Shown here: piece by piece, positions 8,880 through 48,000 of the stretch
Layout of the letters: the number at the start of each line of letters is the position of its first letter
Numbering within the stretch: position 1 is the stretch's first letter
Source of the DNA: an uncultured Pelagibacteraceae bacterium
GTDB lineage: Bacteria; Pseudomonadota; Alphaproteobacteria; Pelagibacterales; Pelagibacteraceae
Direction of reading: 5' to 3'
Length of the DNA stretch: 64,000 bases
NCBI GenBank assembly: GCA_902530635.1
Contig: CACABC010000005.1
Location: 1-64,000 of the forward strand
Program-made: the position numbers and the translations under genes
Notes under the pieces: generated by a model
Databases searched by the model: none
Told to the model about the DNA's origin: nothing
The model's input: only the letters and a program-made list of their open reading frames with translations

Positions 8880-10051
8880 CTATCAACCTCCCCAAAAACA
8901 ATATCGAGAGAGCCTAAAACTGCGGGTACGTCAGCTAACATATGTCCTTTAAGTAAATAATCCATTGCTTGAAGATGAGAAAAACCCGGGGCTCTTATTT
9001 TACATCTATAAGGTTTGCTGCTTCCGTCCGATATAAGATATACTCCAAATTCTCCTTTAGGAGCCTCTACTGCAGTATAAACTTTTCCTTTAGGTACCCG
9101 ATATCCCTCAGTAAAAAGTTTAAAATGATGAATTAATGCTTCCATTGACTCCTTTAATTGATCTCGAGTTGGTGGCGATACCTTTCCATCTACAGTTTTT
9201 ATTGGACCTGATGGTATTTTTTTTAAGCATTGCTTAATTATTTTTATACTCTCTCTCATTTCTTCAACTCTACAAAGATATCTATCGTAACAATCCCCGT
9301 TTTTACCTACAGGCACTTTGAAATCTAAATCTTTGTAACACTCATAAGGTTGCGATTTTCTCAAATCCCATGCCACGCCCGAACCTCTTAACATCACACC
9401 AGAAAAACTATGAGCAAGAGCTTCGTCCTTTGTTACAATTCCTATCTGAACATTTCTCTGCTTAAAAATCCTATTGTCGGTCAATAAATTTTCCAGATCA
9501 TCTATTATTTTTGGAAACGTCTCACAAAACTTTCCAATATCAATTAAAAGATTATTAGGTACATCTTGGTGCACTCCTCCGGTTCTAAAATAATTTGCGT
9601 GTAATCTTGAGCCTGAGGCTCTTTCGTAAAATGTCATTAAAGTTTCTCTTTCTTCAAAACCCCAAAGAGAAGGTGTCAAAGCTCCAACATCAAGTGCTTG
9701 TGTTGTTATATTAAGTAAATGACTCAAAATTCTTCCAATCTCACAAAAAATAACTCTTAGATATTGTGCTCTTATTGGTATCTGAATATCTAATAACCTT
9801 TCGGTGGCGAGTGCAAAAGCATGTTCTTGATTCATTGGCGCAACATAATCAAGTCTGTCAAAATAAGGTAGTGCCTGAGCATAAGTTTTATGTTCAATTA
9901 ATTTTTCAGTACCTCTATGTAGTAAGCCTATATGGGGATCAACTTTTTCAACAAGTTCTCCGTCTAACTCTAATATTAATCTTAAAACTCCATGTGCTGC
10001 AGGATGCTGAGGTCCAAAATTTAGATTCATTGTTTTTTTTTCTTTAGCCAT
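8876..10051 (-). CDS. nuoD: NADH-quinone oxidoreductase subunit D
   Basis: Peripheral-arm subunit (49-kDa homologue) that forms the quinone-reduction site with NuoB. The family signature [17 protein letters not shown] lies at the N-terminus and [11 protein letters not shown] near the C-terminus. The ORF track extends to 10117. I shorten it to the ATG at 10051 ([13 protein letters not shown]) because the added 22 residues overlap nuoC and are not family sequence. This start also gives the 8-nt overlap ATGGCTAA with the nuoC stop, matching other nuo junctions. Confidence 0.96.
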
Positions 10052-10646
10052 CCTCTTTTCCTTTATTTTTAATTTCGTCAATATATTTTGTGCCTTCCCA
10101 TGGGCTATCAAAGTCAAATTTTCTATAATCTTGTTCTAATTTAACTTTCTCATAGATTACTTTTTTATCTTTTTCGCTGTACCTAACCTCATTAAAACCT
10201 GTTAGAGGAAAATCTTTTCTAAGTGGGTGACCATCAAATCCATAATCTGTAAGTATTCTTCTCAAATCTGGATGATTTTTAAATTTTATTCCATACATAT
10301 CGAACACTTCTCTTTCCATCCAATTTGCTGAAGGATAAAGTTTTGTTATTGAAGGAATTTTTTCATCCAGGTTAAAATTTATAATAATTTTAATTCTTAA
10401 ATTGTTTTCATGGCTTAAAAATAAATAACAAATTTCAAATCTATTTTCTTCATCTGGATAATCTGCTGCTGCAATATCTATTAGTTGCTTAAATTTGCAT
10501 TTTTCATCCGTTTTTAAAAATAAAATTACTTGGTATAAGTTTTCTACCTTAACATCTATTGATAGTTCGTTATTTTCAATATTGGTATTTTTAATTTTAG
10601 TTGTTAACTCTGAATTTATCAGTTTGTTTATTTCGTTAAGATTCAT
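10044..10646 (-). CDS. nuoC: NADH-quinone oxidoreductase subunit C
   Basis: Peripheral-arm subunit (30-kDa homologue) that packs against NuoD, 200 residues, encoded separately from nuoD. The signature region is visible as [19 protein letters not shown] near residue 105, followed by [20 protein letters not shown]. The Lys/Glu-rich tail ([11 protein letters not shown]) matches alphaproteobacterial forms. It starts 5 nt after the nuoB stop. Confidence 0.97.
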
Positions 10647-45908: not shown

Positions 45909-46613
45909 ATGGAATCAATAGCTCAAATTAAAAAATTGAGTTTATGGATATTTATAATACCTTTCGTAGCTATTAATCTTTGTCTTTTTATTTCTGTAAA
46001 TTATCAAATTTTTGATAATACATTTCTTTCAGTTGATCAGATAGGAAGGACAAATCCGACTTTTCCATATTTTGATGGTGGAGTTTCAATAAGTAGAACA
46101 GCAAGAACATATCCTGCCTACCTAGTCTTTAAACCCTCAATGATTTTTGCATCAATATTATTAATACTATATTGGATTAAAACTAATAAATTAATAAATT
46201 CTTTTGAAGACAAAAAAAATAGAAATAATACTTTTAAGACTTTTGGAATATTATCAGCAATATTTCTTATTGTTCATTCTATATTTTTAGGAGTTAAATT
46301 TGACTACGATATATATAAGTTTTTTAGAAGATTTGTTTTGTTGTCATTTATTATTTTTGAAATTGTAGCGCAATCCCTTCTTGTTTACCGTTTCTTCAAG
46401 CTAAAATCTTTAATTAAAAAATATATAAATAATTATGTTTTGATACTTAAGATTATACTGGTTAGTATTTTGGTTATTGTTGCAATTGTGAGTTTGCCAA
46501 TTGTGGTAACGAGTGGAAATGTACATTTTAAACATGGGCTTGAATGGAACTATTTTGTTGGTGTAATTATTTTTTATCTTTTAACTTTTTTATTTTGGAA
46601 AAGAGTAGAGTGA
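45909..46613 (+). CDS. Six-helix membrane protein, possibly Frag1/PGAP2-like
   Basis: A 234-residue integral membrane protein with about six hydrophobic helices (first: LSLWIFIIPFVAINLCLFIS). The loop between helices 1 and 2 is long and polar (TNPTFPYFDGGVSISRTART), and a HGLEWNYFVGVIIFYL segment forms the end. The helix layout, the Pro/Ser-rich first loop and the His-x-x-Glu-Trp near the last helix recall the Frag1/DRAM/Sfk1 (PGAP2) family. This is a tentative resemblance, and no function can be given. It starts 12 nt after the miniprotein ORF. Confidence 0.6.
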   Translation: MESIAQIKKLSLWIFIIPFVAINLCLFISVNYQIFDNTFLSVDQIGRTNPTFPYFDGGVSISRTARTYPAYLVFKPSMIFASILLILYWIKTNKLINSFEDKKNRNNTFKTFGILSAIFLIVHSIFLGVKFDYDIYKFFRRFVLLSFIIFEIVAQSLLVYRFFKLKSLIKKYINNYVLILKIILVSILVIVAIVSLPIVVTSGNVHFKHGLEWNYFVGVIIFYLLTFLFWKRVE

Positions 46614-46615
46614 AA

Positions 46616-46796
46616 CAAAAAAAACTGCCGTCCACACACCTTTCGGTGCGTAGACTTTAGTTTTGGCTCGTCGTTAATGCGCTACCGCCAAGCCTCCCGT
46701 TCCACAATTTTAGCGCTACTCTGCGGAACTTTCTGCCCGTTAAGCTTGAACCTCTCGGTTTTTCCCTAACTGGCCAGTTGAGAGTTGCCTCTCAAT
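46616..46796 (-). ncRNA. Structured RNA of unknown class, GC-rich, with three GNRA tetraloops
   Basis: The only intergenic stretch of about 50% GC in DNA of about 30% GC. Read on the minus strand it forms CTCTC hairpins capped by GNRA loops: stem 46778-46795 with loop GCAA, stem 46749-46760 with loop GAGA, and stem 46634-46651 with loop GAAA. A larger helix pairs 46689-46693 with 46744-46748 and 46699-46705 with 46723-46729. Its apical loop GCGCTA can pair with a downstream TAGCGC as a pseudoknot. AACTG near the 5' end pairs with CAGTT before a run of eight Ts, a likely terminator. It has no ORF and matches no tmRNA, 6S, SRP or RNase P signature I know. Confidence 0.7.
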
Positions 46797-46869
46797 TCAA
46801 TTATTATTAAATCATACCTCGATAAAATTTAACATCACTTTATGGTTGTTTTATTCAATGGTTTGTTAA

Positions 46870-48000
46870 TTATGTGGATAAATTTTTATTGATAGCTTTA
46901 TCTATCCATCCCCCACCCAAAACTCTTTCTCCGAGTTTATCTTTTGAATAAAAGACACATGCTTGGCCTGGCGAAATCCCTTTTTCATCTTGCAGTATTT
47001 TCACAACTGTTTTGTCTTTTTTGATTGTTATTTTTGATTTTAGTAATTTACCTGTGGATCTTACTTTTATAAAAACTTCTTTTTCAAAACACTTTGCATC
47101 AGATAAAAGGTTAACATTTCTTAAATAAAGTTTTTTTATATTTAAAAAATCTTGTTTACCTACAATGATGGTATTGTCTATTGCTCTAATATCAACAACA
47201 TAAAGAGGATCTGTGCTAGAAATTTTAATGCCTTTTCTTTGACCGATAGTGTAATTTATAATTCCGTTATGTGTACCTAATTTATTTCCATTTATATCTA
47301 AAATATCCCCCTTTTTGAAAGATTGAGGTCTGTATTTTTCTATCACAGAAGCGTAATTTCCGTTTGGAACAAAACATATGTCTTGGCTATCTGGCTTTGT
47401 GGCTACATTAAGTTTTAACTTATTTGCTACATTTCTCGTTTCAGATTTTTTTATAGAACCTAATGGAAATCTTAAATAATCAAGCTGCTGTTGGGTTGTG
47501 CTAAATAAGAAATAACTTTGGTCACGTTCCTTGTCTTCTGCTCTGTACATAGCACCTGAACCATTATTTTCACGTCTTAAAACATAATGTCCTGTAACCA
47601 ACGCATCAGCTTTTAGTTCTTTTGAAAATTTAAATAAGTCTCTAAATTTAACAGTTTGATTACATTGTACACATGGTATAGGTGTTTCACCTGAAACGTA
47701 ACTATCAATAAAAGAATCTATAACCTCTGCTTTAAATTTTTTTTGGTAGTACAAAATTTTATGTTCAATATTTAGAGTTTCTGACACTCTTTTAGCGTCT
47801 ATAATATCTCTACCAGCACAGCATTGTCTTCCATTTGTTGGTATTTTAGAATCGTCGTATAATTTTAATGTTATTCCAGTAACGTTATAACCTTGTTCTT
47901 TTAGAAGCCCTGCAACAACAGATGAATCTACACCTCCGGACATTGCTACTACTACCTTGGTATTTTTAGGCGACTTTTTTATACCTAGTGAGTTAATCAT
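46870..48000 (-). CDS. mnmA: tRNA-specific 2-thiouridylase MnmA
   Basis: Enzyme that thiolates U34 of Lys, Glu and Gln tRNAs; 376 residues. The PP-loop is [18 protein letters not shown] near residue 17. The catalytic cysteines are in [14 protein letters not shown] near 110 and QDICFVPNG near 208. The C-terminal domain contains [14 protein letters not shown] and VLGGGWI. Its -10 box (TATAAT at 48018-48013) lies 12 nt before the ATG, so the mRNA may have almost no leader. The structured RNA lies downstream on the same strand. Confidence 0.97.

Follow-up and report, generated by a model that had tools for sequence, protein, structure and literature searches.

The structured RNA encoded on the minus strand of the DNA analysed here (a 64,000-nucleotide stretch from an uncultured Pelagibacteraceae bacterium, hereafter the window) belongs to IMES-2 (Rfam RF02035), an already catalogued family of marine RNAs, and the locus represents one more copy of it. 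The RNA core occupies positions 46663-46802 (-) and was matched by cmscan over the full length of the family model (model positions 1-141) with a score of 157.9 bits (E=2e-41) against a gathering cut-off of 54.7 bits, and the four-helix secondary structure of the family is present with compensatory changes among relatives. To our knowledge, neither a function nor a clear host has been recorded for IMES-2 so far. Comparison of related sequences goes beyond the Rfam model in three features: a conserved promoter-like region, a kissing loop that covaries and, at the 3' end, a predicted hairpin resembling a terminator. The same comparison adds a SAR11 host clade and the presence/absence behaviour of a cassette. 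As a catalogue entry alone this copy is ordinary. The link to Pelagibacteraceae, among them complete genomes whose close relatives lack IMES-2, supplies natural presence/absence pairs. With these pairs, a promoter region that is now defined and a tertiary contact open to test, the role of the RNA can be examined in very abundant ocean bacteria.

Identity of the RNA

A first-pass annotation made from the letters of the window had described a structured, lineage-specific RNA on the minus strand that matched no family. The strand, the structure and the lineage specificity were borne out, and the proposed Infernal cmscan search against Rfam returned a significant match that supplies the missing name. 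The annotation had rightly set aside tmRNA, SRP RNA and RNase P RNA, for none of which Rfam or ARAGORN gave a match at the locus. Its descriptive observations were also reproduced: the GC content is about 50% (90 of 180 nucleotides for 46621-46800) between flanks of 26% and 22%; three hairpins with GCAA, GAGA and GAAA loops are present on the minus strand; a run of eight Ts, read on that strand, lies at 46617-46624; and the neighbouring genes are convergent, ending at 46613 (+) and 46870 (-). A coding function was considered and rejected, as the length of the core varies out of frame (138-142 nt) and no consistent open reading frame is found among relatives.

Structure of the core and the loop-loop contact

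The minus strand has a predicted folding energy of -72.1 kcal/mol, compared with -48.2 +/- 3.7 for shuffled sequences (z = -6.5). Covariation among SAR11 relatives, named in the first-pass annotation as a test, was found both for the helices and for the loop-loop pairing. It was evaluated for the Rfam helices and the loop-loop pairing in an alignment of 33 representative sequences from six genera, in which 94.4% of the cells at 45 pairs, including the kissing pairs, form standard pairs, the alignment being sequence-based and only approximate in P2 and P3 for g2 and g8, the genera that diverge most. No shuffle reached this level of pairing, both-sided changes occur in 32 of the 45 pairs, and sliding the partners out of register reduces pairing to 32-40%.

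The conserved shape, as deduced from this alignment, is a series of four hairpins in which P1 directly abuts P2. P1 (46778-46795, -) carries the GCAA loop, shows covariation and is paired in 100% of the cells. P2 (46733-46777, -) has a GAGA apical loop and a conserved internal loop (GAAA/CAAG), with both-sided changes in 9 of its 11 outer pairs. Such changes affect every pair of P3 (46699-46729, -), whose large loop bears UAGCGCUA. P4 (46665-46694, -) displays UAGCGC in its loop and covaries in five of nine pairs; its conserved G-A mismatch is unpaired in 33/33 sequences. A further helix, the closing pairing AACTG/CAGTT of the first-pass annotation, was rejected: AACTG is present in 125/125 relatives and CAGTT in 2/125, so that the helix is kept in only two, and it conflicts with the conserved structure because AACTG already belongs to P1 and P2.

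The annotation had also pointed to a possible pseudoknot between a palindrome, TAGCGCTA, and a second TAGCGC, and compensatory changes back this pairing. The strand GCGCUA in the loop of P3 (46711-46716, -) pairs with UAGCGC in the loop of P4 (46679-46684, -), and for this kissing helix alone 96.5% of the cells are paired, with 11 double-change cells compared with 1.9 in shuffles. The combination GCGCU/AGCGC is found in 93 sequences, and matched alternatives occur as GCACU/AGUGC (5), GUACU/AGUAC (2), GUGCU/AGCAC (1) and UCGCU/AGCGA (1); the other 23 sequences have no perfect five-base-pair match, and those inspected keep four pairs (CGCU/AGCG). Since GCACU/AGUGC is not palindromic, the pairing joins two different loops, and on this comparative evidence the predicted pseudoknot between loop 3 and loop 4 holds up. 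The same pairing could possibly form in trans, from one molecule to another.

Promoter-like and terminator-like elements

Aligned upstream regions predict a -10-like TATGAT at 46811-46816 (-) and reveal a conserved element, AACAACCATAAAGTGAT, at 46834-46850 (-), which either overlaps the position expected for the -35 region or lies immediately 5' of it. Of 123 distinct upstream regions, 106 have the motif AAAGTGAT at a distance of 36-39 nt from the core. Further upstream are two tandem DnaA-box-like 9-mers (46864-46881, -), comprising TTATCCACA at 46873-46881 and TAATTAACA at 46864-46872, and 112 of the 123 distinct upstream regions contain TTATNCACA when a single mismatch is allowed, compared with 13% of shuffles. 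From their sequence, we infer that DnaA may bind these two 9-mers. The upstream elements accompany the RNA to every genomic site. In the window, TTATCCACA shares sequence with the final codons of mnmA (46870-46881), and the cassette therefore extends into the 3' end of that gene.

On the 3' side, the window has a terminator-like hairpin with a GAAA loop (46630-46655, -), followed by the T run at 46617-46624 (-), a likely terminator tail. A terminator-like hairpin is retained in every clade inspected, with a sequence that differs from clade to clade, and a run of at least four Ts is present in 104 of 125 relatives.

The DnaA-like boxes and the coordinates in complete genomes prompted us to consider the locus as a chromosome origin. 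This was rejected: around the locus the skew of the window does not change over in any sustained way, and the IMES-2 copy of the complete genome G015 maps close to the maximum of the cumulative skew, hence closer to the terminus than to the origin.

Host range and genomic setting

IMES-2 was found in 200 of 397 Pelagibacterales genomes and is present as a single copy in each of the genomes listed. Outside the family Pelagibacteraceae, a sample of 385 genomes of the class Alphaproteobacteria gave no match, and the matches listed for a pattern derived from the RNA, in a search of named GTDB genomes, all belong to Pelagibacteraceae or Pelagibacterales. Judged from these searches, the home of IMES-2 is SAR11 (Pelagibacterales). 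Among the IMES-2-free SAR11 genomes, twenty that are at least 95% complete were scanned again with R1, a second model built to include the divergent genera; 19 gave no match at E<=1, and the twentieth (G092) gave only a chance-level match (E=0.52). A diverged IMES-2 in the negative genomes was thus considered and rejected, R1 finding none and the promoter pattern giving scattered matches only.

At least four genomic contexts are occupied, at mnmA, at xer/ogt, at a nuclease gene and at rmuC/selO. In genera g1, g6 and g9 the RNA is flanked by mnmA and a hypothetical gene, in g3 by ogt and a small open reading frame beside a tyrosine recombinase, in g2 by genes for a nuclease and an SRAP-like protein, and in g8 by rmuC and selO; the recombinase, ogt and mnmA were confirmed by Pfam, and the remaining names are our reading of the proteins. 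The first-pass placement downstream of mnmA therefore describes genera g1, g6 and g9 correctly and does not extend to the others, and no downstream gene is consistent across genera. IMES-2-free genomes have the same neighbours without a trace of the RNA, and such empty sites occur both next to xer/ogt and next to mnmA. In a phylogeny of the recombinase, the presence of IMES-2 switches at least seven times on well-supported branches, this being the tree of a single gene rather than of the species, with some rows possibly representing a paralogue and with hosts that recombine often. Taken at sequence level, IMES-2 looks like an independent, dispensable cassette that has been repeatedly gained or lost among SAR11 species.

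These settings bear on whether the RNA acts in cis, as a structure in the 3' untranslated region of mnmA or as the leader of the next gene. In the window it follows mnmA on the same strand, and in g3 it stands just ahead of ogt; both positions would suit such a role, but the neighbours vary by genus and include sites at which the next gene is convergent, and identical promoter-like elements travel with the RNA. We regard a general cis role as very unlikely.

Comparison with 6S RNA and IMES-1

The first-pass annotation had offered a divergent 6S RNA as one identity for the locus. 6S RNA binds sigma70 RNA polymerase and templates pRNA, and an RNA polymerase regulator of this kind could stand in for a 6S RNA missing from SAR11: none of 28 SAR11 genomes (G000 and 27 others) matched the 6S model (RF00013) at E<=1, although this model detects the Caulobacter RNA, and IMES-2 resembles 6S RNA in being an independent small RNA gene of similar length. 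The two differ in architecture, however, as IMES-2 forms four hairpins in series instead of a long rod with a large central bubble, and the 6S model finds no match at the IMES-2 locus. IMES-2 is itself missing from approximately half of the SAR11 genomes, and with the different architecture and the missing match this makes a 6S-like role most unlikely.

IMES-1 (RF02034), which also comes from marine environmental sequence and likewise has no assigned function, was considered as a stand-in for IMES-2. No match exceeded the cut-off in any of 38 SAR11 genomes, and IMES-1 is therefore not a substitute in IMES-2-free species.

Proposed mode of action

The family assignment, the structure, the kissing pair, the host range, the changes of context and the conserved upstream elements are read from sequence; transcription, termination, action in trans, a protein partner and regulation we infer. 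In the account that we consider somewhat probable, IMES-2 would be an autonomous gene whose product is a structured RNA that is dispensable and acts in trans by way of a bound protein. The conserved promoter region would give rise to a transcript of ~190 nt ending at the terminator hairpin, and this transcript would fold into four hairpins with P3 and P4 locked by a loop-loop kiss of 5-6 base pairs. The rigid RNA surface so formed would be presented to a protein, in a ribonucleoprotein or as a protein decoy, rather than used for antisense pairing. An autonomous promoter-like region, the lack of a consistent target gene and a locked fold favour such a protein-binding RNA acting in trans.

The main rival is a trans-acting antisense small RNA, in which mRNAs would pair with loop 3 and loop 4 or with internal loops, possibly with the help of Hfq, and the kissing loop would open or close the RNA as a switch. 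A terminator-like hairpin with a T tail, an autonomous intergenic gene and the conserved A-rich flanks of the loops are all in keeping with this reading. The conserved unpaired stretches are very short, however, and the loop motif that would be the candidate for target pairing is occupied internally and changes along with its partner. Hardly any conserved sequence is thus left free for an mRNA, which favours protein binding, and we consider the antisense reading possible but unlikely. Against the protein-binding account it can be said that the AAA linker, the internal loops or the flanks of the loops could pair with a target, and that in g3, where the RNA lies directly 5' of ogt on the same strand, a cis role is possible.

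A more elaborate form of the protein-binding account would make IMES-2 an accessory mobile cassette of SAR11, in which DnaA at the two boxes ties expression to replication or the cell cycle and the product acts as a kissing-loop ribonucleoprotein. We regard this combination as quite improbable; we know of no such regulatory RNA described in streamlined ocean bacteria.

Virus-like contigs and a chromosomal recombinase

The virus-like contig L310 contains the 3' part of IMES-2, beginning with the GAGA hairpin of P2, directly beside a phage integrase; the break lies inside P2, and the sequence before it no longer pairs. Because the end of L310 joins IMES-2 inside P2, an integrative element or satellite of SAR11 may use the RNA gene for its attachment. 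As at the tRNA and tmRNA genes used as phage attachment sites, an integrase-bearing contig joins the RNA gene within a hairpin; unlike at those sites, there is one case, located at a contig end, and IMES-2 is a candidate attB only. This junction and the clean presence or absence at several sites would fit a sequence that is mainly mobile or an attachment site, with the RNA as part of a small selfish element. Against this, the cassette encodes no consistent protein, no terminal repeats were seen by eye, selection on the structure is strong and there is one copy per genome, and we consider a mainly mobile or attachment role improbable.

The region of L310 at 9181-10360 encodes the phage integrase, a TOTE-type primase and a second integrase-like gene. 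In the short contig L311 (1629-2149), a T4-like clamp loader and a truncated DNA methyltransferase run into IMES-2; this contig, which ends inside IMES-2, may be a chimeric assembly. The phage and plasmid records searched gave no match. A viral attachment core in the form of a 15-mer was rejected, its 72 matches being, by a rough estimate, close to chance level for the size of the collection; extension into IMES-2 occurred only in the two contigs already known.

A chromosomal tyrosine recombinase is found in 20 of 22 SAR11 genomes, and the copy in G015 lies near the GC-skew maximum. An imperfect inverted repeat (TTACTATTGATAACAATTAATTATCATTAGTAA) is conserved just 5' of the recombinase gene (L320-L339, e.g. 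L324 and L320), with a shorter form, TCCGATAACNATTAATTATCGGAA, in G009 and G001. By analogy with XerS/difSL, it could be the dif site of a single-recombinase Xer system.
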